Shown piece by piece: positions 2 to 20,149 of a DNA stretch of 24,665 nt (its first letter is position 1; each line of letters opens with the position of its first letter). The stretch is from the IMG/VR virus record IMGVR_UViG_3300021136_000056, positions 1-24,665 of that record, one strand, 5' to 3'. Under the pieces are notes generated by a model. That model saw nothing but the letters and a program-made list of their open reading frames with translations, did no database searches and was not told where the DNA came from. The stretch is from a virus. A program made the position numbers and the translations under genes.

Positions 2-217
2 ATATCAAACACGATTGAAGAGTATGCCTACGACGTGGGCAACATTAAAAACTTAATTGAAGTAATTGCAACAGACATACAAGACCCGCATAGCGGTGCA
101 TTGTGGGCTACTCGACTAATGCTTGACAGGATGGAAGAACTATTACTAAAGCAATCCGCAGAACTAATGGCTCTACATCGTGAACAAAAAGAAATACCTA
201 AAAAGAAAAAGAAATGA
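2..217 (+). CDS. C-terminal part of an unknown small protein (5' truncated by window edge)
   Basis: The reading frame is open from base 2 to the TGA at 215-217, so the gene probably begins left of the window. A GTG at 35 could start it, but I see no clear ribosome site there and the upstream residues read naturally. The visible part is mostly helical and charged and ends in a lysine run (PKKKKK). The stop overlaps the polymerase start as ATGA at 214-217, which points to translational coupling. I do not recognise the family. A role in replication is suggested only by its neighbour. Confidence 0.6.
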   Translation: MSNTIEEYAYDVGNIKNLIEVIATDIQDPHSGALWATRLMLDRMEELLLKQSAELMALHREQKEIPKKKKK

Positions 218-2046
218 ATATTTTAACCCTTGACTTTGAAACGTATTATGCACAGGACTTTAGCTTGTCAAAGCTGACGACCGAGGAGTATGTGCGTGAT
301 GATCGCTTTGAAGTTATTGGTGTATCAATAAAGGAGAATGACGATGAAGTTAAGTGGTTTAGCGGTACTCACGAAGAAGTATTGGATTTCTTGTCTAACT
401 ATGACTGGGATAGTTCTTTTGCTCTTGCCCACAATGCTATGTTTGACTCTGCTATTCTGTCTTGGCGGTTTGGTATTAAACCAATGGCTTGGCTTGACAC
501 GCTTAGCATGGCTCGTGCGACAGATGGTTTGGAAGCTGGCAACTCCCTCGCTAAATTGGCTCAGCGTTATAACCTTGGAGTCAAAGGGACAGAAGTACTC
601 AATGCGATCGGCAAACGACGTGCGGATTTTAGCGACAATGATTTGTACGCATATGGTGGATATTGTAATAATGACGTGGAGCTAACCTACTCTCTTTTTG
701 AAATACTACTGCCACGGTTTAGCCTGTCCGAGTTAAAGCTAATTAGTTTGACAATCAAGATGTTTTCAGAGCCAACGTTATTTTTAGACACGGCGCTACT
801 TGAACAGCATCTGATGCAAGTGCGTGCCCGCAAAGAGAAATTACTTGATGCTTGCGTAGCAGATAAAGATACCCTAATGTCCAACCCGAAATTAGCAGAA
901 CTACTAATATCGTTGGGCGTTGAACCACCGATGAAGATAAGCCCAGCTAACGGAAAGGAAACATATGCGTTCGCCAAAAGTGACGAGGGCTTCAAGGCTC
1001 TTGCGGAACACCCCGATGAAAGAGTCCAAGCTATTGTTGCAGCCCGACTCGGAACAAAATCAACTTTGGAAGAAACAAGAACCGAGCGCTTTATCAGTAT
1101 TTCTAAGCGTGGTAGGATGCCTGTGCCTTTGCGTTATTATGCTGCTCATACTGGTCGTTGGGGTGGGGATGACAAGTTAAACCTACAAAACTTACCAAGG
1201 AAATCGCTTCTTAAGGAGGCAATAATTGCACCCGACGGTTATACCCTTATCGACGCAGACTCTTCTCAAATTGAGGCTCGCATTGTTGCGTGGCTAGCGG
1301 GACAAAACGACTTAGTCACAGCATTTGAAAGGCATGAAGATGTTTACAAAATCATGGCATCGTCTATATATGGTAAGGCAGAAGAAGAAATCGACTCGCA
1401 AGAAAGGTTCGTGGGTAAGACGACAATCCTCGGTGCGGGGTATGGCATGGGTTCTACCAAGTTTGGGATACAACTCAAAACTTTTGGGGTGGAAATCGCA
1501 GATGCGGAGGCGGCTAGGATTATCGAAGTCTATCGATCTAGATACCCTCACATTCCCCGACTTTGGCAGGAAGCTGGTAGTGCCCTTGATGCGCTCAGAA
1601 CTAAAAAAACTTGTCAAGTTGGGCATCAAGCGCAAGCACTTACCGTTACGGAGTCAGGTTTTTTACTCCCAAGTGGTCTTTTCCTCAACTACCCCGACCT
1701 CCAGCGAGATTCTGACAATCAGTTCTCATACGCCAGTAGACGAGGAAGAATTAAGATCTACGGTGGGAAAGTAGTAGAGAATGTGTGCCAAGCCCTAGCA
1801 AGGTGTGTTATTGGGGAGCAAATGCTTCGTATAGCGAAGCGTTACAAGGTAGCCTTAACCGTACACGATGCGGTGATGGCTGTCGTTCCCGAAGATGAAA
1901 CCAAGTCTGCAATGCTGTATATTGATGAATGTATGAAATGGAGACCGAAGTGGGCTCAAGAACTCCCTTTGGCTTGCGAACTTGGTGTAGGTAAATCCTA
2001 CGGTGATTGTAGTAAAAAGAAAGCAATAGAAGAATGGCAAAAGTAG
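214..2046 (+). CDS. Family A DNA polymerase with 3'-5' exonuclease domain
   Basis: 610 residues. This should be the phage replicative DNA polymerase, copying DNA in the host cytoplasm. The N-terminal proofreading exonuclease shows Exo I (D7-F-E9), Exo II (N74, F77-D78) and Exo III (Y150-x3-D154). The polymerase half has the GRWGGDDKLNLQNLPR segment near residues 314-329 and motif A DSSQIEAR with catalytic D349. Motif B is R398-x3-K402-x7-Y410-G, and motif C is VHDA with H551-D552. There is no 5' nuclease domain, as is usual for phage enzymes. One oddity is that motif C has Ala where most family A enzymes have Glu (HDE). Bases 1312-1774 are unusually free of stops in other frames, a sign of a codon-use change. 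The start is fixed by the ATGA overlap with the upstream gene. The stop overlaps the next small gene by 13 bases. Confidence 0.95.
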   Translation: MNILTLDFETYYAQDFSLSKLTTEEYVRDDRFEVIGVSIKENDDEVKWFSGTHEEVLDFLSNYDWDSSFALAHNAMFDSAILSWRFGIKPMAWLDTLSMARATDGLEAGNSLAKLAQRYNLGVKGTEVLNAIGKRRADFSDNDLYAYGGYCNNDVELTYSLFEILLPRFSLSELKLISLTIKMFSEPTLFLDTALLEQHLMQVRARKEKLLDACVADKDTLMSNPKLAELLISLGVEPPMKISPANGKETYAFAKSDEGFKALAEHPDERVQAIVAARLGTKSTLEETRTERFISISKRGRMPVPLRYYAAHTGRWGGDDKLNLQNLPRKSLLKEAIIAPDGYTLIDADSSQIEARIVAWLAGQNDLVTAFERHEDVYKIMASSIYGKAEEEIDSQERFVGKTTILGAGYGMGSTKFGIQLKTFGVEIADAEAARIIEVYRSRYPHIPRLWQEAGSALDALRTKKTCQVGHQAQALTVTESGFLLPSGLFLNYPDLQRDSDNQFSYASRRGRIKIYGGKVVENVCQALARCVIGEQMLRIAKRYKVALTVHDAVMAVVPEDETKSAMLYIDECMKWRPKWAQELPLACELGVGKSYGDCSKKKAIEEWQK

Positions 2047-2213: not shown

Positions 2214-2341
2214 GAGACGGCGGAAAAGGCGATACACCACGCCCACTAGGTGTACCTATGGAAAAGTTTGATGCTCAATGGGAACAAATCTTTGGTAAAA
2301 AAGAAAAGCCCGAAGAGCCAAAAGAAAAAGAGGCTGAATGA
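2210..2341 (+). CDS. Small hypothetical protein, 43 residues (GGKGDTPRPL type)
   Basis: ATG at 2210 overlaps the previous stop (ATGA), and its own TGA at 2339-2341 overlaps the nuclease start (ATGA). The product begins MRDGGKGDTPRPLGV, contains FDAQWEQIFGKK and ends in a Lys/Glu-rich tail. From memory, short phage proteins with a GGKGD-PRPL opening and an F-x-x-x-W-x-x-I-F-G segment occur beside replication genes in other phages. I cannot verify this here and know no function. The ATGA junction at both ends strongly supports translation. Confidence 0.65.
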   Translation: MRDGGKGDTPRPLGVPMEKFDAQWEQIFGKKEKPEEPKEKEAE

Positions 2342-3012
2342 GCTTTACTTGGTCATACTCGTCGCTTGGATTATTCCAGCAGTGTCCTCGCAAATACTAT
2401 CGCTTGCGTGTAGTAAAGGATATTGTCGAGCCCGAAGCCGAGCATCTTACTTATGGGAAGCTGGTGCATGAAGCCGCCGAGTTGCACATCAGAGATGGTG
2501 TGCCTATCCCTGAGAAGTATTCATTCCTTACTCCAGTATTGGATGTTCTAAAAGCAATACCAGGTGAGAAGCATTGTGAATACAAGATGGGTTTGACTGC
2601 TGATTTAGAGCCATGTGACTTCTTTGATAAAGCCAATGTGTGGTATCGAGGTATTGCCGATCTGATTATTATAGACGGCGGCTTAGCCCACATCATTGAC
2701 TATAAGACAGGCAAGTCTGCGCAGTATGCCGACACTAAACAGTTAGAACTTATGGCGCTGTGTGTATTCAAGCACTTCCCACAAGTCGAGAGAGTTAAGG
2801 CTGGCTTGGCTTTTGTGGTGTGCGAAGAGTTTGTTAAGGCTAAATATGCAAAAGACGAAGCGCCACAGAAGTGGATTACTTGGTTGCAAGAAACTAATAA
2901 ATTAGAAGCAGCCCATACCAATGATGTGTGGAACGCAAAACCTAACTTTACTTGCAGGAAGTTCTGCCCAGTAAAAGACTGCGAACATAATGGAAAAGGA
3001 CATTGGAAATGA
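2338..3012 (+). CDS. PD-(D/E)XK nuclease, Cas4/RecB-like, with probable Fe-S cluster
   Basis: 224 residues. This is probably a DNA exonuclease used in phage replication, recombination or host DNA breakdown. The nuclease core shows the motif I His (H44 in YGKLVHE), an acidic E81, motif II D108 in GIADLI, motif III D121-Y-K123 and motif QLE at 135-137. Four cysteines, C16 in the opening CPRKYY and C206, C210 and C215 near the end, match the Cas4/AddB arrangement that holds a 4Fe-4S cluster. The length is normal for phage Cas4-like nucleases. ATGA overlaps at both ends place it in the same translational chain as the polymerase. There are no cas1/cas2 genes or repeats nearby, so a CRISPR adaptation role is not supported. 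Assignment to the superfamily is secure; the exact substrate is not known. Confidence 0.88.
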   Translation: MSFTWSYSSLGLFQQCPRKYYRLRVVKDIVEPEAEHLTYGKLVHEAAELHIRDGVPIPEKYSFLTPVLDVLKAIPGEKHCEYKMGLTADLEPCDFFDKANVWYRGIADLIIIDGGLAHIIDYKTGKSAQYADTKQLELMALCVFKHFPQVERVKAGLAFVVCEEFVKAKYAKDEAPQKWITWLQETNKLEAAHTNDVWNAKPNFTCRKFCPVKDCEHNGKGHWK

Positions 3013-3224: not shown

Positions 3225-3438
3225 GGTTTTAGAAGAGGTCATTGATGATGTCTTACGCCGACTACCAAACAAAAAAGAAGGGCTAAAGCCTTATGAATTG
3301 TGGAACGCTGTACCAACTTTTCGACGAGCAAAACGAGTTGATGCGTATTGTTTCGAGGAAAGAAGAAGCGCTCGCAGTAGTCGCTCTGCGGAGTGGTTGG
3401 AGTTACAAAAGAGTAGCAGTAGTAAAACCAAAGTTTGA
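3205..3438 (+). CDS. Small hypothetical protein, up to 77 residues, GTG start (3' half doubtful)
   Basis: A GTG at 3205 follows GGAG at 3193-3196 with good spacing and overlaps the previous gene by 20 bases. The first 30 residues (VKKGMRKVLEEVIDDVLRRL and on) look like a real amphipathic helix. After about base 3293 the translation becomes an Arg/Ser-rich low-complexity tail (RRSARSSRSAE, SSSSKTK), which suggests that selection there acts on the other frame (see 3293-3460). The gene may be real to its TGA at 3436-3438, or a frameshift may join it to the next frame. I do not recognise it. Confidence 0.45.
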   Translation: MKKGMRKVLEEVIDDVLRRLPNKKEGLKPYELWNAVPTFRRAKRVDAYCFEERRSARSSRSAEWLELQKSSSSKTKV

Positions 3439-3460
3439 GTTTGAGGATGCACCATTTTGA
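3293..3460 (+). CDS. Small hypothetical protein, 55 residues, overlapping the previous frame
   Basis: This frame is opened by a TAA at 3284 and starts at ATG 3293, with AGAAGGG about 11 bases upstream. The product begins MNCGTLYQLFDEQNELMRIV, passes through EEALAVVALRSGWSYKRVAVV and ends KPKFEFEDAPF. It reads as a well-formed small soluble protein, unlike the Ser/Arg-rich translation of the overlapping frame. Its TGA (3458-3460) overlaps the TTG start of the PPK2 gene as TTGA, the same coupling pattern used elsewhere in this chain. Function unknown. Confidence 0.65.
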   Translation: MNCGTLYQLFDEQNELMRIVSRKEEALAVVALRSGWSYKRVAVVKPKFEFEDAPF

Positions 3461-4224
3461 GCACCATAGACCAAACAGAAGCATCACCTAGGAACTTGAT
3501 TAGTCTCAAGGATTACGAGGCGAAAAAGTATTTATTACAAATTGAACTATTGAAATGGCAAAATTATGTTAAAGAAACTAATACACAACATATCATCGTT
3601 TTTGAAGGGCGTGATGCAGCGGGAAAAGGAGGTTCTATTAAACGGTTTATGGAACACCTCAACCCAAGAACAGCAAGAGTCGTGGCCCTTTCCAAGCCAA
3701 CCGAGCAAGAAGCCAAAGAGTGGTACTGGCAAAGACACATCAAAGAGTTCCCCAAAGCAGGCGAAATCACGTTCTGGGACAGGTCGTGGTACAACCGAGC
3801 AGGGGTCGAATGCGTTCTTGGTTTTTGTACCAGAGAGCAAACCGAACAATTCTACAAAGAAGCGCCCATCCTTGAAAAAGTCTGGGTCGAAGGAGGAATT
3901 AAAATTATCAAGTTCTGGTACTCGGTCAGCAAAAAAGAGCAAGCCCGTCGCTTCAAAGAAAGGGAAACCCACCCGCTCAAGCAAGGCAAACTCAGCGAAG
4001 TAGACATGATTAGTCAGGATTTGTGGGATGAATACACTAGAGCCAAGAATGAGATGTTTGCGAGAACTAACATTCCCGAATGTCCTTGGATACAAGTGCG
4101 CTCAAACTGCAAAAGATCTGCGAGAATAGCGAGTATGCAGTACGTTCTGCTGAAGAATGACTACCCTGATCGGAGCCTAGAAAACATCGGGGTAATCGAC
4201 TCGTCTATATTAAAAGGAGTTTGA
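3457..4224 (+). CDS. ppk2: Polyphosphate kinase 2 (PPK2) family protein
   Basis: 255 residues. PPK2 enzymes transfer phosphate from polyphosphate to nucleoside di- or monophosphates. Walker A is EGRDAAGKGG at 50-59, with the PPK2-specific D53 and K57. The Walker B/lid segment is FWDRSWYNRAGVE at 106-118, with D108. The conserved YxRAKNEMF segment is at 193-201. The start is TTG at 3457, with GAGG at 3443-3446. No in-frame ATG occurs before residue 65, and an ATG start would lose the kinase core. A deviation is PLKQGKLS at 173-180, where bacterial relatives usually have PLKRWKLS. Between 3547 and 4095 the codons favour C endings and AGA/AGG, and both another + frame and the - strand are stop-free, unlike neighbouring genes. 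This hints at recent acquisition. Whether it makes NTPs from NDPs or NDPs from NMPs cannot be read from the sequence. Confidence 0.92.
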   Translation: MSTIDQTEASPRNLISLKDYEAKKYLLQIELLKWQNYVKETNTQHIIVFEGRDAAGKGGSIKRFMEHLNPRTARVVALSKPTEQEAKEWYWQRHIKEFPKAGEITFWDRSWYNRAGVECVLGFCTREQTEQFYKEAPILEKVWVEGGIKIIKFWYSVSKKEQARRFKERETHPLKQGKLSEVDMISQDLWDEYTRAKNEMFARTNIPECPWIQVRSNCKRSARIASMQYVLLKNDYPDRSLENIGVIDSSILKGV

Positions 4225-4225
4225 C

Positions 4226-4516
4226 ATGGCAAACAAGAAGAAGATTGTAGCACCTGCAATTCGTGAAAAGAAAACAGGGGTAGTTATTGAAGCTCCCTCT
4301 AAAGCATGGGCGCATGACCAGATAGAAGCAAAAGAGCATATACCTGATAAGAAAGTTAAGCGGGGGTTTATAACTAGCGAAGATAAATTTGTAGGTAGGA
4401 AAAAAGCCGCCAAGATTGCTAAGAAAGCTGGGCAAATTAAAGGCGAACACGTTAAAAAATTACATTCAAGCGACCTTCGCTTGGCTAATGGGATACCCAA
4501 AAAGAAATTTAAATGA
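4226..4516 (+). CDS. Small basic hypothetical protein, 96 residues
   Basis: ATG at 4226 is one base after the PPK2 stop and has a strong AAGGAG at 4214-4219. The product starts with a lysine-rich MANKKKIV, has a central KRGFITSEDKFVGRKKAAK and a later GQIKG, and ends LHSSDLRLANGIPKKKFK. The order R-G-F-x-T-S, F-V-x-R-x-x-A, G-Q-I, L-H-S-x-D-L recalls a small domain of unknown function that I have seen in phage proteins; this is memory, not a search. The high lysine content would suit nucleic acid binding. Its stop overlaps the methyltransferase start as ATGA. Confidence 0.75.
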   Translation: MANKKKIVAPAIREKKTGVVIEAPSKAWAHDQIEAKEHIPDKKVKRGFITSEDKFVGRKKAAKIAKKAGQIKGEHVKKLHSSDLRLANGIPKKKFK

Positions 4517-5043
4517 ACTTTACAGAAGATTGGTTTAGCCACAATATACCTAACTTTGAACTATGCATGAACAAGTTAGCCGAGAAAGAGTTATTTCTTG
4601 AAATTGGTAGTTACGAAGGGCGCTCAACTTGTTGGTTGCTTGAGAACGGCTTGGCAGACAAAGGTAGTATGGTGTCTATTGACCCATACCCAAACCTTAC
4701 CGAAGTTGAAACTAGGTTTTGGACTAATATTGCACAAGCTAAGAAAGATACTCAAGTGGTATCTGCCTTTAAAGATACTTCATATAAAGCATTAGCCGAA
4801 ATGATTGGGTATAAATATGCGTTTGACTTTATTTATGTGGATGGTAGCCACGCTCCTGATGTTGCTCTTACTGATGCTTGTATGGCGTGGGGGTTATTAA
4901 AACAAGGTGGCGTCATGTTGTTTGATGACTACCAGTATCCACACGAAGCTACTGGCAAAGGCATTGATGCTTTCTTATCCGCTTTTGAAGGTCAATATGA
5001 TTTAGTGTTTTCCAACTATCAACTGGCGGTGCAAAAGAAATGA
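4513..5043 (+). CDS. Class I SAM-dependent methyltransferase (Methyltransf_24-like)
   Basis: 176 residues with a Rossmann-fold methyltransferase layout. Motif I is FLEIGSYEGRST (28-39, E30 and the glycines binding SAM). The acidic residue after strand 2 is D57 in SIDPYP. YVDGSHAPD (108-116) and the late LFDDYQYP (136-143) match the small Methyltransf_24 group. Members of that group often act on sugars or small molecules rather than DNA, and there is no adenine-methylase (D/N)PP(Y/F) motif. ATGA overlaps with genes on both sides, followed directly by two glycosyltransferases, suggest joint work on a glycan or a modified nucleotide. The substrate is unknown. Confidence 0.85.
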   Translation: MNFTEDWFSHNIPNFELCMNKLAEKELFLEIGSYEGRSTCWLLENGLADKGSMVSIDPYPNLTEVETRFWTNIAQAKKDTQVVSAFKDTSYKALAEMIGYKYAFDFIYVDGSHAPDVALTDACMAWGLLKQGGVMLFDDYQYPHEATGKGIDAFLSAFEGQYDLVFSNYQLAVQKK

Positions 5044-5744
5044 CACGTATAGCAGTGATAACCCCAACAATCGGAACTGATTGGTTGCCACAAGCTATGC
5101 ACAGTGTTGGTATGGATGCCGAGCATTGGATTGTAGTAGATGGTATTGCCTATGCCCAGCGTGTAGCTAGCATGATTCAAGCACACCCATATAGACAAAA
5201 GCTAATTGTGCTTCCTGAGAATACTGGCACGCCGATAGTAGGCTTTAATGGTTTACCCTATACAGGGTTCTTTAATGGCTATCGAATAAATGCTGCTATT
5301 CCTTTGCTAACTAATGCCGACTACGTTATGTTCCTTGATGAAGATAATTGGTTTGAACCAAACCATATCACTAGCATGGTTGAGGCGCTAGAGAAAAACA
5401 ACTGGGATTGGTGCTATTCATTAAGAAACGTCGTAGCAAAAGATGGTTCATTTATTTGCAAAGATGAGTGCGACAGTCTAGGGATAATCCCTAGTTATCA
5501 CGAGACAAGCGGAAGTTTTGTGGATATGAACTGTTACTTATTTAAAAACTGTGTGATTAGTCAGATAGCTCATAAGATGTTTGATTTAGTTAAGACCTAC
5601 GACGGCGATAAGAATTTATATAAAGAAGCTAGTAGTAGATACCCTAACTTTGGCTGCACAGATTTGTTTACAGTAAATTACAGAATGACAAGACCGAATC
5701 AAGAAGATTTTTACTTAAAAGGAAACGAAGTATATGGAAAATAA
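5040..5744 (+). CDS. Glycosyltransferase, GT-A fold (family 2-like)
   Basis: 234 residues. The N-terminus MTRIAVITPTIGTDWLPQA is the nucleotide-sugar-binding opening of a GT2-like enzyme. It is followed by WIVVDG at 30-35 and the metal-binding D100-E-D102 in FLDEDNWFEP. The C-terminal part has several cysteines and an aromatic GCTDLFTVNYRM segment. It likely transfers a sugar from a nucleotide-sugar donor; acceptor and donor are unknown. The gene starts by ATGA overlap with the methyltransferase and overlaps the second glycosyltransferase by 11 bases. There is no signal peptide or membrane segment, so a cytoplasmic enzyme is expected. Confidence 0.85.
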   Translation: MTRIAVITPTIGTDWLPQAMHSVGMDAEHWIVVDGIAYAQRVASMIQAHPYRQKLIVLPENTGTPIVGFNGLPYTGFFNGYRINAAIPLLTNADYVMFLDEDNWFEPNHITSMVEALEKNNWDWCYSLRNVVAKDGSFICKDECDSLGIIPSYHETSGSFVDMNCYLFKNCVISQIAHKMFDLVKTYDGDKNLYKEASSRYPNFGCTDLFTVNYRMTRPNQEDFYLKGNEVYGK

Positions 5745-6483
5745 TAAGTCACTATTTATTGCCACCCCTATGTACGGTGGCTTATGCAACGGTTCTTATA
5801 CATTAGGTATGTTACTCATGCCTGGTGTGTTTGGTAAAGCAGGTATTGGTATGCAGTATGCCCACATGATGAATGAGTCTTTGATTACCCGTGCTCGTAA
5901 TAGTTTGGCGCATGACTTTTTAGAAAGCAACTGCACGCATCTTATGTTTATCGATGCCGATATTGGGTTTAATCCCAATGATATTATTCCTATGGTTGCT
6001 GCAGATAAAGATATTATTTGTGGTTTGTACCCTAAGAAAGAAATTAACTGGGTGCAAGTAGAAGCGGCAGTTAAAGCTGGCGTTCCTACCGAAAAGCTCA
6101 AAGATCATACAGGCATTTTTGTAGTTAATGCGGTTAATTATGAGACAGAGATTGCCGCAAACATTTCTGACGTAGTTGAGATTGCTAATGGAGGTACAGG
6201 CTTTATGTTGATTAAGCGTGAAGTATTTGCTGGCTTAGCTGACAAAGTACCTGAGTATATTAACGACATGTTTGCAGTTACTGACGACCACAATCAGAAA
6301 AAAGTAATCAAAGAATACTTTGCTACTAGTATTGATTCCACATCGGGTAATCGCTTATTGTCGGAAGACTATCATTTCTGCAAAATTGCAAGAGAAGCTG
6401 GCTTTAAAATTTGGGCAGCACCTTGGGCGCAGTTGTCCCACACAGGTTCTTACGTGTTTAGCGGTTATTTACCAAGGGTTTAA
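5734..6483 (+). CDS. Second putative glycosyltransferase (phage type)
   Basis: 249 residues. It opens LFIATPMYGG, has ITRARNSLAHDFL at 51-63 and a DxD at D74-A-D76 in MFIDADIGF. Near the end are SEDYHFC and a His in LSHTGS. These are the features of the phage GT-A proteins usually annotated as glycosyltransferase or glycosyltransferase-like hydrolase. The start ATG at 5734 lies inside the end of the previous gene and has AAAAGGAAA before it. It is probably a partner of the two upstream enzymes. Whether it acts on phage DNA, on virion protein or on host surface sugars is not shown by the sequence. Confidence 0.8.
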   Translation: MENNKSLFIATPMYGGLCNGSYTLGMLLMPGVFGKAGIGMQYAHMMNESLITRARNSLAHDFLESNCTHLMFIDADIGFNPNDIIPMVAADKDIICGLYPKKEINWVQVEAAVKAGVPTEKLKDHTGIFVVNAVNYETEIAANISDVVEIANGGTGFMLIKREVFAGLADKVPEYINDMFAVTDDHNQKKVIKEYFATSIDSTSGNRLLSEDYHFCKIAREAGFKIWAAPWAQLSHTGSYVFSGYLPRV

Positions 6484-13523: not shown

Positions 13524-13548
13524 CCCCACCCTAGCGGTGGGGTTTTTT
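13524..13548 (+). terminator. Intrinsic terminator ending the + strand genes
   Basis: CCCCACC (13524-13530), loop CTAGC and GGTGGGG (13536-13542) form a perfect 7-bp GC-rich stem followed directly by six T residues (13543-13548). It ends + strand transcription. Its T-run overlaps the stop codon of the converging - strand giant gene. On the - strand the hairpin is not followed by T residues, so it is chiefly a + strand terminator. Confidence 0.9.
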
Positions 13549-16500
13549 ATTCGTCAGGGTTACCGTAATCACCCATGCTGCTCAGCTCACCAATCAGCTT
13601 CTTGTTGATTGGCATACCACCAGTACTATCAGCTAGAGCACGCTGCTTAAATCGGGTTCTTACAGAGCTACTTAGATTCTTACCAGTAATAGCTAGAGTT
13701 GGATGTGTTGCATTAAACTTAGCAACCTTGTCTAATACTTTGTCAGTCATATCAGTATCGCCATTATCGATAGACATAAAGAAACCGTCCAGTAATCCTT
13801 GGCGCTTATTAAGAATAGCCTGTTCAGCAGTCTTCATTTCAATATTAGCTTTTTGGCGTTGTGCCAGGCGCTCTGGTGTAAACCCTAATGCTTGTGCTGC
13901 AACTTCTGGGCCGGTAATATCGCCTACAAGCACGTTGCCACGCAAGGTTGTAGCTTCGCCTTCTTTACCTAAGCGGATACCTTTAAGGATATTCTTAACC
14001 AATGCTGGGCTAGCAGTCTCCATTGCACGCTCAATATGGCCCTCATTCCACTGCTTAAGTGCCTCGGCTGAGCTAACCATTAGACCTGCAGTAGGGCCAA
14101 GTAAGTTAACCATCATGTTCTGTACGGCAGTAACTTCGTCAGGGCTCTTACGGCTATCTCTGTACCACATATCGTTTAAAGATAGTCGGTCGGCTACGTT
14201 AGCACCAAGTACTTGAGAAGCTACACCACGAGAAATAGAGTCGCCTACAAAGCCGCCAAAGGTCTTGTTACACCAGTTTTTAAACCAGTTATCAAAATCA
14301 AACTCATCATCGTCATCGCCAAATACAGCGTGCATAGCATTCATTACCCCAGATACCATCCACCATAAGGGTAAACCCGTAGCCCCAGCAAATACCGCAG
14401 TCATGCCGAGTGTTCCAGCTAAGCGGTCACGTGCTTCAGTTCTAGTATCTTTAATATATTGATGCACTTTAGCATCAAGTTCTGCATCAGATAGTGGTGG
14501 CAAACCAGGTTTATTTACTCTGTGGTCGTCCTTAATCTGATAACGAATGTCTTTAATCTCGTCTTCGCTATAAGACTTACCAATATATTCATAAGCACTA
14601 CGTGCTAGCAGGTACGTCATTTGCTGAGAGAACTGCTTGAACTGTAAGACTATCTTGGCTACTGGGTGCTGAAACCAGCGTGGCTTATTCAAAGTAGAAT
14701 AGTCAAACATAGACTTATAAGTTAAGTCTTTAGCAATACCAATAGCCTTACGGCGTGCAGCTTCTTCTGAATAGCCATCTTTTTTAGCTTGTTCATAAGC
14801 CATATCAAAAGAAGACATAGCTACAATTTCACGGTTAAACTTCTCAGCACCATGGAAAGCGCCACTTAACCACTTCATTGCGGTGTGGGAATGCCCAGTA
14901 TATAAGTTAGATGGCGCCTCGGCTAAGCCTACCAAGTCATGCGACAAAGTGTAGTCAATCAAACCGTCGGCTAAGAACTGGTCATAAGCAGCTTGTTGTG
15001 CCTCAGTAAAGATACCTGGCTTATTGCTAAGCGATGGGAAAGCTATCTCGCCATTCTGGTCTTTAAATCCAGTGCTAATAAATTTTTTAGTATATTCACC
15101 CATCTTAAGTGCAGTCTTAGTCCAGCCATATCTAGCAGCAACTACAGGCATACCTACTGCTGGAACACCTAGCATGTTAGTGATTGCTGATGCAGGTGAA
15201 GTCATAAACCACAAGAAAGATACATTAGATAACACCGATGGAATAGCGCCAGTATCGGTTGGGCTCATGATATAGCCAAGGCGTTGTTCTAGTTCACCAA
15301 GGTACTCGGCTTCAATCTTGCCTTCTCTACCACCTTTTTGCTGAGTAGCTTCTTTAGCAGTTTGGATATCACTATATAAACCACGACTATATTTATAACG
15401 TGATTGCTGATAAGCCATATGGAAAGCTGAGGATGTAAATGCACGAAGCATATCCTGATCCATACCAGCGGTACCCTTACGATTCATAAACATCTTACGA
15501 ATGCTTTGGTCAGGCAAAGTAAGCAGATATAACTGCTCCAAGCTTTCTTCTAAATTAGTACGCAGCTCAGTAGTATCTTTACCTGCAGTGGTATTAATAA
15601 TATCTTTTAGCTCTTTTAAGAACGTGAAGTCTTTCATGTTCTCAGACATAAGTTTTTGAATAGAGTTACGTGGCTTAACTTCATCGCTGCTTAATGGTCG
15701 GCCAATTTGTTTTTCAAGCTCGGCTTGGCGCTTAACTTGGAACGCATTACGAGCTGCAGCCGATTCAAACGTATAGAACTCTTTCTGTTTGCCAGATAAG
15801 AACTGAACTGAATAACGACCAAAACGACGTAATGGAAAGTATGGCTCAATAGAATGCTGCTTGAAATGGTCACGCAGCTTCTTAACCTCTGGCTCTTTTT
15901 CTAAGTCAGCAGTTTCCTGCGCATATTTAGGACTGCGAGTATCCAGGGTTGTACGCAACTGAGACTTCTTATTCTCAACGATATTATCGATATAGCGCTG
16001 TAAGCTCTGGCTATAGTAGTCACGCACTGTGGTATATATTTCTTTACCTTTTTCATCAAGGGAGTTCCATGCATTATCCAAAGATGGGATACCAGTCTTA
16101 CCTTTAGATGGGTCTTTAGCCTGCAAGGTAGAGTCAAGCATAATGCCATTTAGTTTTTTGGCTTGCTCTGGGTTATCCCGCTGGTAAATCATCCACTTAT
16201 TAACGATAGATTTAGTGGACTCAAGCATGTTGTTGCGTTCATCCAACATACCTTCGACCTTAGCAATGAAAGTTCTAAACTGCGGAACCTTATGGCCGAT
16301 CATATCGTCAAGCTGACGTAGGGTAAACCCGCCCAAATAATACTTACGGGAGGTATCTTTTACGTTCTCAATCAGGTCAGACATGTTTAACTTAAGTGCT
16401 GCCCAGCTAGGCTTGCCTTGGAATACTCTGTCTAAGAAGCTCATGTATCCAGGATTAGTCGGCATTGTATTGTCTAGAACAGAGCGGCGTGACCGACCAC

Positions 16501-19500
16501 GCTGGTTGTAAGCAACTGCTTCTTGAGAGAAAGCTGGGGCTGCTTGCAAGATTGTATTTACATTAGCTAGGGTATACCCTAATACGTTATTTAAACCAAA
16601 TAGTTTGGATACAAATTGCGCAAATTTATTCCATAAAGATACTTGACCGCCTTCGTACTTAATCTTTTTAAGTAGTGCTTGGAAGTTCTCATTAGCCATC
16701 GCTTCAGCCACAAACTCTTGTACGCTATTAAAGCCATATGCATTCTCATCTGACAGCGGAGTAAACTTTTTAATTGCTTCGTACTTGCGCTTAGCATTTT
16801 CAAATACTAGCTTGAGTTCTACAACGGCATCTTGCTGGGCTTTAGTAAGGTTCTTGAAGTTAGCTGGGTCTAAAGCATAAATAGTTCCAGCGTGCGTTAC
16901 TTCATGCAATAGAGTAACTGTGCTCATACCACCACGATCTGGGTTCAGATTGATGGTGTCTAGGTTTTCTAAGTACGTACCGTTAGCATCAATAATGCCG
17001 ACCGCTTCTTGGTAAGTCTTAAGTAAGTCTTCAAACTGCCCACGAATTGGCTCAAGCACTGCTTGTTTTGCTGGAGTCTTATCAGCATAAAGCGCTTCTA
17101 ATGTAGCTAAGCTTTGGCGTAAAGAAGCAGGGTCATCTAGTGAGCCATCAAAACCATGCTCAGCTAAGAACTCCCGACCCCATTCGTAGCTTTCAATCTG
17201 CTGCAAGAAAGTGCGACGTGCAATACGAGCATTCTTCTCAATATAGTAACGGGCAATTTTGTTCTGTTGATTTACACCAATACTAGTCGGCAAGTTAAGA
17301 TCAAGCAAACGCTGTGCTACCTTAGCAGTAAACTTCATGTACTTGCTAGCGTCTTTGCCTGGGTCTTTAGCCAATAAAGTAAGTGCGCCAGTTAAATCAT
17401 TATTAGCAACCTTTTCTTGGATTGCTGGATGCATTGGATAGAAACGGCTTGGGTCTAGCTTCTCAACAGGGCTTGGCTTCATAAAGCGAGCCATACCAGC
17501 GCCTTGAACACCAGCAGTCTTACCGGATGGGCCACGCCCAATAGATACAGAATAAGTTTTACCTATGCCACCAATCTTCTTAAGATTGTCTGCTACTTTA
17601 ATTGAGTTGTCGGCCTTGCGAACCATGTCCTTGTAGGACTGTACAGTTGCATCGAAGCGCTTGAGTTCGCTCTGTGGTAGATTTTCTTCTACCCATTTTC
17701 TAAACTCTTCTGCGGACTTCTTATTCTGTCCCTTAAATACAACACCAGCTTTGCCTGTATCTGGAGTGCCTAAATCAAACGCAGCCGAGCGCATTGCCAA
17801 AGCATAGCGCCAACCAGTCTCATCATTAAAATATGCGTGAGCAGCATTATCTGGAGCAGTTCTTTTATCTTTAGGTAAGTCTTGAAGCGTTGTTAATGCT
17901 TTAGCTATACGAGGTACAACAAACGAATCCATATTGGATAAGTCATCAGTTAGCTTGTAAGGAAGTGCAGTCTCTTCTTCTCCAATACGGGAGCGTTCAA
18001 ACTGTGCCAAAGCTGTATTAAACTTATCACGTAGTTCTGTAATACCACGAACGGTATTTAGTTCTGGTACGTTAGTTAAAGATTGCAGTGCCTGTGCTTG
18101 GTCTTGTGCAGACATGCCAGCAAAACGCTGGGATAGGGCAGATGTTAAGGCTTCTCTTTCTTTTGGAGCAATACTCATGCTATCAAAGAAGTTATTCAAG
18201 AAAGCCATACGTTGGTCTAACTCTGGGCCCTGCAACGGCACGCTTACATCTGGGCCTTTTTCTTCAGTGCCATAGCGAGTAACTTGTTGTGTACTCTTAC
18301 CGCCGACAAACTCTGCAACAGTATTAAGGAAGTTTTGAACTGTAGCTTTATATTGAGTAGCTTGCTGTGGGTTTTGGGTAGCTGGTTTTAAGCTATTGAA
18401 GAAAGCATTCATTGGCTTCATTGGGTTTGTTCTATCCCCAACAAGCATCATCTTAGCTTTTTCTGGCTCAGCTATAGCCTCAATACCTTTAGTCTCACCT
18501 ACTTTGCCTTCTGGCCTATCTAATGCAAACTCCATTGGTTCGCTAGATTTAATGGTGCGCTCAGGTTTTTTATTGGGATCTTCCGCACCAAACTCAAAGC
18601 CCATTTGACTAGGCATGTTATGTGCAACTTCTTTGCTAGCCGTAATTAAAGAATGGGCTTGGTCTTCTAATTCGTATAGATGTGTGCGTGCTTCTGCAAT
18701 CCGTTCATCGTTAGGGTCGGCTTGCTCTAAGTCTTTTATGTAAGCACGAGTCTGGAGTACTTTTCTATCTAGCTCGTCTAGTTGATTGTTGAGTTCTTCT
18801 TCTCGTACTGCAGTTCCGCTAGTAGAAAGCTCAGTTCCTCCCATGCCTCCAGGGGTAGTTTCTTCAGTTCCTTGCTCGGTTCTGCCTTGTTCTCCAGGCA
18901 TAGAAATGCCAGGCTTACTTGTTCGGGAGATAGTTCCAGTATTATCATATTCGGTCGCCTCACTAAAAGCACCACGTCCTGCAGCTTCACTTGCGTCTTG
19001 TTTAGCATTTGCAATTCTTTGGGCAAAATGTCCACGAGCACCACCAATACCCGCTGCGACACCTGGTTGTACAAATGATCCTACTGCTGTTTCAAAATAC
19101 TCATTAATTGCATCTGGGTTTAGCAAGTCTAAGTTAGCACCAAAGCGTTCAGCAACTTGCTGAGTTAATTCAGCAGGCATTTCTTTAACGCCAGTAGTAA
19201 CTATATTCTTAGCTACATCATACAATAAGTTTTTGCCTTGGGCGCCTAAACCGTCCAAAGAACCAATTCCAATTCTTTCAGCAATATAGTCGGCCGTAGC
19301 ATGCAAAGCCATAGCAGGCGCTAACTTAGCAAAGTCTAACTCGCTTACGTCTTTACCTTGGTTTTGTAATTCTTCTACAGCACGAGCACCAGGCTCACCT
19401 ACTCCATGGAATGCTGCTTGTGCAGCCATACCTACTTTACCGCCAGTGCTTTCAATTAAGCGTTTAGCTTGTGCAGTTACAAAATTCTGTGCAGCTTTCT

Positions 19501-20149
19501 CGCCTTGGGTCTCGGCGATCATCTTAGCTGCGTCTTTGATGCCTTCTTTGATTAAACCTTTTTCTAAGAATCCAGCTACGGCACCTGGGGCTGCACCAAC
19601 ACCTGCTCCACCTAATGCACCAATGGCTGCGCCGGCTCCAGTAGCTACTAAACTTTCGCCAACGTTAGCTACGCCTTGCCCCAACATATAAGGAAGATAG
19701 TCAGTGATGACAGTTCCTATCCCTTTTTCCCACGCATTTGCAAACGTGTCGGTTGATTTGCTGAGCGGTACCTGCTCAGCTTGTGCCTGCTTCATACCTT
19801 CCAGACCACTCTTAATCATTTCATCGGTATATTCACCTTTACCCAAAACTTTTTGAGCACCAGCACCAAGTACAGTCTTAGCGCCATAGTAAAGCTCTTT
19901 TGTCTGGGGAAGATATGATTTAATACCACGAACAAAGTCGCTACTATCTTCGTCAGCTTGTTGCCCTAAACCAAGTTCAGCAGGTGTATATTCTTTTTGT
20001 TTAGGTTGTGTTTCTTGTGGAGTAGCAATATATCTACCCAAAGAATCAGGCCTGGGTTTGTTATCCAAGCCGAGTTCTTCGGGCGTATATTCTTTCTTCT
20101 CAGGAGCGGCATTTAAGCCTAGCTCTGTTGCCGTGTATTCACGAGCCAT
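13547..20149 (-). CDS. Giant PLxRFG-type virion protein with HExxH metallopeptidase motif
   Basis: 2200 residues, the largest gene here. The N-terminus has three copies of EYTxxELGL at residues 4-12, 20-28 and 53-61. A Gly/Ala-rich hydrophobic stretch follows (VATGAGAAIGALGGAGVGAA and on, about 165-195). Near the middle is a zinc-protease motif, LLHEVTHAG, with H1082-E1083 and H1086. A likely third ligand is E1145 or E1149 in QEFVAEAM. P1439-L-R-R-F-G1444 is the signature of PLxRFG-domain phage proteins. The C-terminal third resembles large-polyvalent-protein regions (EKFNREIVAM, QFKQFSQQM) and has a hydrophobic LPLWWMVSGVM segment before an acidic DDDDEFDFD. The likely role is an internal virion or DNA-ejection protein that enters the host with the genome; the protease may cut virion or host proteins. 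It starts two bases after the 830-residue gene ends. Confidence 0.8.
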   Translation of the reverse strand: MAREYTATELGLNAAPEKKEYTPEELGLDNKPRPDSLGRYIATPQETQPKQKEYTPAELGLGQQADEDSSDFVRGIKSYLPQTKELYYGAKTVLGAGAQKVLGKGEYTDEMIKSGLEGMKQAQAEQVPLSKSTDTFANAWEKGIGTVITDYLPYMLGQGVANVGESLVATGAGAAIGALGGAGVGAAPGAVAGFLEKGLIKEGIKDAAKMIAETQGEKAAQNFVTAQAKRLIESTGGKVGMAAQAAFHGVGEPGARAVEELQNQGKDVSELDFAKLAPAMALHATADYIAERIGIGSLDGLGAQGKNLLYDVAKNIVTTGVKEMPAELTQQVAERFGANLDLLNPDAINEYFETAVGSFVQPGVAAGIGGARGHFAQRIANAKQDASEAAGRGAFSEATEYDNTGTISRTSKPGISMPGEQGRTEQGTEETTPGGMGGTELSTSGTAVREEELNNQLDELDRKVLQTRAYIKDLEQADPNDERIAEARTHLYELEDQAHSLITASKEVAHNMPSQMGFEFGAEDPNKKPERTIKSSEPMEFALDRPEGKVGETKGIEAIAEPEKAKMMLVGDRTNPMKPMNAFFNSLKPATQNPQQATQYKATVQNFLNTVAEFVGGKSTQQVTRYGTEEKGPDVSVPLQGPELDQRMAFLNNFFDSMSIAPKEREALTSALSQRFAGMSAQDQAQALQSLTNVPELNTVRGITELRDKFNTALAQFERSRIGEEETALPYKLTDDLSNMDSFVVPRIAKALTTLQDLPKDKRTAPDNAAHAYFNDETGWRYALAMRSAAFDLGTPDTGKAGVVFKGQNKKSAEEFRKWVEENLPQSELKRFDATVQSYKDMVRKADNSIKVADNLKKIGGIGKTYSVSIGRGPSGKTAGVQGAGMARFMKPSPVEKLDPSRFYPMHPAIQEKVANNDLTGALTLLAKDPGKDASKYMKFTAKVAQRLLDLNLPTSIGVNQQNKIARYYIEKNARIARRTFLQQIESYEWGREFLAEHGFDGSLDDPASLRQSLATLEALYADKTPAKQAVLEPIRGQFEDLLKTYQEAVGIIDANGTYLENLDTINLNPDRGGMSTVTLLHEVTHAGTIYALDPANFKNLTKAQQDAVVELKLVFENAKRKYEAIKKFTPLSDENAYGFNSVQEFVAEAMANENFQALLKKIKYEGGQVSLWNKFAQFVSKLFGLNNVLGYTLANVNTILQAAPAFSQEAVAYNQRGRSRRSVLDNTMPTNPGYMSFLDRVFQGKPSWAALKLNMSDLIENVKDTSRKYYLGGFTLRQLDDMIGHKVPQFRTFIAKVEGMLDERNNMLESTKSIVNKWMIYQRDNPEQAKKLNGIMLDSTLQAKDPSKGKTGIPSLDNAWNSLDEKGKEIYTTVRDYYSQSLQRYIDNIVENKKSQLRTTLDTRSPKYAQETADLEKEPEVKKLRDHFKQHSIEPYFPLRRFGRYSVQFLSGKQKEFYTFESAAARNAFQVKRQAELEKQIGRPLSSDEVKPRNSIQKLMSENMKDFTFLKELKDIINTTAGKDTTELRTNLEESLEQLYLLTLPDQSIRKMFMNRKGTAGMDQDMLRAFTSSAFHMAYQQSRYKYSRGLYSDIQTAKEATQQKGGREGKIEAEYLGELEQRLGYIMSPTDTGAIPSVLSNVSFLWFMTSPASAITNMLGVPAVGMPVVAARYGWTKTALKMGEYTKKFISTGFKDQNGEIAFPSLSNKPGIFTEAQQAAYDQFLADGLIDYTLSHDLVGLAEAPSNLYTGHSHTAMKWLSGAFHGAEKFNREIVAMSSFDMAYEQAKKDGYSEEAARRKAIGIAKDLTYKSMFDYSTLNKPRWFQHPVAKIVLQFKQFSQQMTYLLARSAYEYIGKSYSEDEIKDIRYQIKDDHRVNKPGLPPLSDAELDAKVHQYIKDTRTEARDRLAGTLGMTAVFAGATGLPLWWMVSGVMNAMHAVFGDDDDEFDFDNWFKNWCNKTFGGFVGDSISRGVASQVLGANVADRLSLNDMWYRDSRKSPDEVTAVQNMMVNLLGPTAGLMVSSAEALKQWNEGHIERAMETASPALVKNILKGIRLGKEGEATTLRGNVLVGDITGPEVAAQALGFTPERLAQRQKANIEMKTAEQAILNKRQGLLDGFFMSIDNGDTDMTDKVLDKVAKFNATHPTLAITGKNLSSSVRTRFKQRALADSTGGMPINKKLIGELSSMGDYGNPDE

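Follow-up and report, generated by a model that had tools for sequence, protein, structure and literature searches.

A class I polyphosphate kinase 2 gene in a phage cassette belongs to a viral clade with glycine in place of the lid tryptophan

The PPK2 gene and its phage locus

We analysed a viral sequence record, 24,665 bases long (hereafter the window), which presumably derives from a freshwater phage. The window carries a class I polyphosphate kinase 2 (PPK2) gene on the plus strand (positions 3457 to 4224), which starts with TTG and encodes a protein of 255 amino acids. The gene lies in a block of co-directional replication genes which includes a family A DNA polymerase (PolA; 214 to 2046, plus strand; PF00476, phrog_17) as a marker of the phage backbone, a PD-(D/E)XK exonuclease (2338 to 3012, plus strand; PF12705, phrog_69), a SNF2-type helicase and a DUF927 primase/helicase, in line with the first-pass annotation, which had placed PPK2 inside a phage replication operon. 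Directly upstream, an open reading frame of 55 amino acids (approximately 3293 to 3460, plus strand), conserved as a stretch in relatives, ends with a TGA stop codon at 3458 to 3460. Read by eye, this stop codon and the TTG start at 3457 form the four-nucleotide TTGA overlap that had been proposed earlier. Related PPK2 genes start with TTG, GTG or ATG and their N-termini are conserved, which supports the TTG at 3457 as the start codon.

The predicted protein matches the Pfam PPK2 family (PF03976; E = 2.5e-83, 279.6 bits against a cut-off of 22.3, profile positions 3 to 225 of 229) and the NCBIfam equivalog TIGR03707 (314.6 bits against a cut-off of 301.8), which describes the class I type and is named for Pseudomonas aeruginosa. 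A search of PHROGs with the PPK2 protein returned no matches. The motifs EGRDAAGKGG and WDRSWYNRAG, on which the initial assignment as a full PPK2 was based, are both present. The Walker A segment (residues 51 to 57, GRDAAGK; 3607 to 3627, plus strand) includes D53 and K57, which are invariant in 28 viral sequences (see below), and the Walker B segment (residues 108 to 114, DRSWYNR; 3778 to 3798, plus strand) includes N113. The residue after Walker B is Asn in class I, Gly in class II and Glu in class III (PMC8776046). N113, assigned to this position by alignment, is found in all 28 viral sequences and most likely represents the class I signature residue.

The residues proposed to be catalytic or polyphosphate (polyP) binding in the Francisella tularensis enzyme FtPPK2 (PMC4748334) were compared by alignment. 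The catalytic D62, K66, D117 and R118 of FtPPK2 correspond to D53, K57, D108 and R109 in the window protein, and H76 (H67), R174 (R165), R178 (R169), K184 (K175), K228 (K219) and R232 (R223) are kept as well, while K229 is replaced by another basic residue, R220. A structure model built on 42 aligned sequences (mean pLDDT 91) superimposes on the nucleotide- and polyP-bound structure of FtPPK2 (5llb) over 240 residues with an rmsd of 0.9 Å (Z 36.8, 54% identity). Alignment and model thus show a full-length PPK2 with all tested catalytic and polyP-binding residues and a predicted class I fold, which is expected to be enzymatically active.

Four other metagenome contigs encode a PPK2 protein that is 100% identical to that of the window, with the same flanking genes. 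Because of this recurrence, a chimeric assembly at the gene is very unlikely. Together with the junction comparison described below it also led us to reject a stray host fragment, in agreement with the original view of the gene. The junction comparison delimits a two-gene cassette of 1,056 bp between two TGA triplets (3458 to 4513, plus strand), consisting of PPK2 and g4226 (4226 to 4516, plus strand), which encodes a basic protein of 96 amino acids from a widespread phage family (phrog_839, 8.9e-11). Three relatives with a PolA approximately 93% identical to that of the window (L031, L033 and L034) lack both genes as a whole unit. Their empty junction reads TTTTGAACTTTACAG in L033 and L034 and TTTTGAAGTTTACAC in L031, compared to TTTTGA-[PPK2, g4226]-TGAACTTTACAG in the window. 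The filled and empty junctions differ by 1,056 bp, which is exactly the two genes and is compatible with gain as well as loss. In the more distant L013, PPK2 is present at the same upstream junction, indicating either more than one event or a cassette in the shared ancestor. PPK2 occurs in six of the 48 PolA-related loci, some of which are truncated, and is therefore an accessory cassette and not core to these phages. The gene is thus located in a phage genome and not in host flanking DNA, and is maintained by selection (see below), as expected for an auxiliary metabolic gene. The closest isolates, Rhizobium phages TM3_14A, TM27A, TM27B and TM29 and Pseudomonas phages KPP25 and phiR18, have PolA proteins which are only 34-37% identical.

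The partner gene g4226 adjoins PPK2 in 22 of the 28 distinct viral sequences and is missing in L020, L021, L078, L085, L087 and L088, although L020 starts at a contig edge within PPK2 and its lack of g4226 is not fully informative. An obligate functional pair was considered and rejected, as only 12 of 80 g4226 loci contain PPK2. Some loci show the order PolA-g4226-exonuclease (L284-L289) and others PolA-PPK2-g4226-exonuclease (L006-L012). On this distribution, g4226 is more likely a shared landmark or insertion site beside PPK2 than an obligate partner. A PDB search with the g4226 model (pLDDT 83.5) gave no match at E < 0.8. The g4226 family (L002-L336; phrog_839, unknown function) has an invariant KKLHS..LR motif and was confirmed in 242 stretches of phage contigs.

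Several other features of these loci were recorded. A methyltransferase gene and two glycosyltransferase-like genes are located directly 3' of the cassette (4513 to 6483); all three are present in L031 and L033 and none in L036. The minus strand of the window (13547 to 20149) encodes a protein of 2,200 amino acids which carries a metallopeptidase-like motif, HEVTH, and may be an internal virion protein. DUF2201 metallopeptidase/VWA-like proteins are encoded several kb 5' of PPK2 in L017 (1511 to 2686), L024 (4401 to 5678) and L028 (3311 to 6261), and L028 additionally has a phage AAA ATPase gene upstream of PPK2.

The viral PPK2 clade and its diagnostic residues

A profile scan of IMG/VR identified 41 PPK2 loci. 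Four of these (L025, L026, L027 and L084) group with cellular PPK2s and retain the lid tryptophan discussed below; they probably represent host DNA or were captured recently. The remaining 37 loci, by which the gene is not unique to this contig, represent together with the window 28 distinct viral sequences. In a tree that also included cellular PPK2s of classes I, II and III and further phage records, the 28 sequences form one group with a support of 100/100, a single change being required in all 200 bootstrap trees. The phylogenetic placement suggested by the first-pass annotation thus yielded a virus-only clade inside class I, whose stem is long (0.86). A first tree, in which the cellular side was limited to the 80 closest sequences, required three changes and did not decide on monophyly; the broader tree was decisive. 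None of the sampled cellular PPK2s fell inside the viral clade in the broader tree. Cellular sampling consisted of one collection scan (best 80 kept, at most 59% identity) and some 90 further sequences, drawn from genomes in three phyla plus a few others, and an unsampled cellular relative of the clade is possible. Among the best 80 kept, the closest cellular match to the window protein is 59% identical.

Phage genes found in PPK2 loci include those for terminase and portal (L088), baseplate wedge (L020 and L087), a UvsX-like recombinase (L085), tail fibres (L021) and the terminase small subunit (L018), and more than one virion type appears to be represented. In a clustering by shared genes, low thresholds merged nearly all backbones and higher thresholds gave about five to nine groups. 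Judged by gene content, viral PPK2 is carried by several phage backbones, with a number of separate acquisitions that varies with the clustering threshold. Moraxella phage Mcat6 was considered as a viral relative and rejected: its unannotated PPK2, in which the Trp is retained and the N-terminus is long, clusters with cellular enzymes and is probably host DNA flanking the prophage. In the same Mcat6 record (L169, 4902 to 6545), an S24-type repressor-like protein adjoins an Abi_alpha (abortive infection) protein.

The clade differs from other PPK2s in the lid loop. Position 177 (codon 3985 to 3987, plus strand), which aligns with position 186 of FtPPK2, is Gly in 28 of 28 viral-clade sequences and Trp in 179 of 180 others, the single exception being Tyr. 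The 180 comparison sequences cover classes I, II and III and five records from phage collections outside the viral clade. The Trp preceding the second lid Lys is an empirical regularity and not a formal family criterion, and the viral clade departs from it. The model places G177 in the loop that joins the lid helices 159-171 and 181-188, flanked by K175 and K178. It had been noted earlier that the window protein reads PLKQGKLS where PLKRWKLS is usual. The variant is indeed present and its Trp to Gly replacement is diagnostic of the viral clade, but it is the only unusual letter, since the Q is common among cellular enzymes. Two further residues are diagnostic: W91 (F91W; 28/28 viral, 0/180 others) and W34 (L34W; 27/27 viral, 2 of the others). 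W107 (mostly F107W; 24/28) and Q187 (27/28) are seldom or never found in the closest cellular enzymes, although a few cellular sequences of the broader set have Q187. W91 is located two residues from R93, and both R93 and P81 are kept in viral PPK2. In the class III enzyme EbPPK2, R106 was reported to contact N7 of adenine (PMC12257356), and R93 is likely its counterpart by the spacing of 12 between P and R.

Because the viral clade is monophyletic, the replacement of Trp by Gly was probably a single event. Identity to the window protein within the clade falls as low as 52%, and retention of Gly177 across such divergence argues for constraint rather than drift. The dN/dS ratio in the viral clade is about 0.04-0.12 for most pairs and 0.29 for L021/L078; it is rough for several pairs with dS near or above 1, and pairs of low divergence agree. 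These low values indicate that the gene is under purifying selection and maintained. With the lid Trp lost, the activity or specificity of viral PPK2 may differ from that of cellular enzymes; our literature search on this Trp found no paper.

Proposed function and alternative explanations

We propose, with a probability of roughly 0.6, that viral PPK2 acts as a polyP-driven nucleoside diphosphate (NDP) kinase, encoded by an accessory cassette gene for NTP supply during infection. The enzyme would be a class I PPK2 adapted to the virus and encoded in an accessory cassette of the early/replication region, and would transfer the terminal phosphate of host polyP to NDPs (polyP(n) + NDP -> polyP(n-1) + NTP) and so keep up the supply of NTPs, and perhaps dNTPs, as host energy metabolism collapses. 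Class I PPK2s that have been characterised use NDPs as phosphate acceptors (PMC8776046), FtPPK2 uses ADP and GDP about equally and PPK2 kinetics in general favour NTP formation (PMC4748334). We infer that NTP formation is the direction in vivo and that the phage benefits, a benefit that would be conditional because most close relatives do not have the gene. No second nucleotide-metabolism enzyme was found among the scanned window proteins, and a literature search for a phage PPK2 acting on host polyP found none. Bacteria of the genus Polynucleobacter, which are frequent in freshwater, encode a PPK2 themselves (PMC7522526), an indication of possible polyP use only and not of host identity.

Whether the acceptors of the viral enzyme are those of cellular class I enzymes bears on a different explanation, which we regard as rather unlikely. 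With the lid Trp gone and W34 and W91 acquired, the enzyme could have shifted towards other acceptors such as pyrimidine or deoxy-NDPs, and would in effect serve phage DNA synthesis as a dNDP kinase driven by polyP. The exclusive occurrence of G177 and W91 in the viral clade (each in none of the 180 others), the near-exclusive occurrence of W34 (2 others), the proximity of W91 to the putative counterpart of the adenine-contacting R106 (PMC12257356) and the acceptance of all five NDPs by some class I enzymes (PMC8776046) are in agreement with such a shift, but R93, P81 and all catalytic residues are retained and the replacements could affect lid dynamics alone. About as unlikely is the wider claim that the clade is a virus-only subfamily whose chemistry was altered when the Trp was lost, for instance to that of a kinase which phosphorylates deoxynucleotides or other acceptors with polyP, so that the phages have a nucleotide supply that does not depend on host ATP.

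Since PPK2 works in both directions and polyP takes part in many kinds of regulation (PMC8776046), the enzyme might instead drain or synthesise the host polyP pool and blunt stress responses, chaperone/protease control or defence rather than supply nucleotides. The accessory and patchy occurrence of the gene is as expected for a host-specific factor; its position among replication genes, the general preference of PPK2 kinetics for NTP formation (PMC4748334) and the failure to find a link to defence make this takeover of the host improbable. If the gene had only recently been captured from a host, or were an assembly artefact, and had no function for the virus, it would resemble the four IMG/VR loci out of 41 that group with cellular sequences. 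The window sequence groups with the viral sequences and not with those four, its closest cellular match among the best 80 kept is only 59% identical, its flanking genes recur in four other contigs and it is under purifying selection. This explanation is contradicted by the data and has hardly any probability left.

Phages carry phosphate-uptake genes, and the use of a stored phosphate polymer as source of energy and nucleotides, as in the proposed NDP kinase function, would differ from these in strategy. The viral clade represents a clean test system, with natural pairs of phages with and without the cassette, one residue that sets the clade apart and thoroughly studied cellular class I enzymes as a reference, and could yield small NTP-regenerating enzymes with unusual specificity.

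Comparison with known PPK2 systems

Virus-encoded ppk2 is already known and the window gene is not the first report: ppk2 was listed as an auxiliary metabolic gene in metagenomes among genes of lytic viruses (PMC9636769) and as encoded by transcriptionally active viruses (PMC13188868). The accessible text of both papers describes the same gene category and does not give a clade, a lid change, a cassette boundary or an assay. In the main text of openly searchable papers, we found no description of a virus-only PPK2 clade, the lid replacement or the cassette. Uncultured megaphages of 634-735 kb (LR745206, LR756501-LR756503) likewise carry a class I-type PPK2, unannotated in the records. Unlike the window clade, these proteins form a separate branch, keep the lid Trp and have a long N-terminal extension in open frame, and on this basis are a second, separate phage lineage. 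In LR745206 and LR756501, the N-terminal part of PPK2 comprises roughly 170 residues in open frame.

Among characterised cellular enzymes, the window PPK2 shares its predicted fold with FtPPK2 (5llb, 5ll0, 4yeg; Z 36.8, 54% identity) and with SMc02148 of Sinorhizobium meliloti (6dzg, 3czq; Z 34.4, 45% identity), and has the Walker motifs, the class I Asn and the polyP-binding basic residues in common with both. It differs from cellular class I enzymes by Gly in place of the lid Trp186 (Ft numbering), by L34W, F91W and, in most members of the viral clade, F107W, and by the absence of an N-terminal PYP-type motif that is present in the sampled cellular class I sequences.
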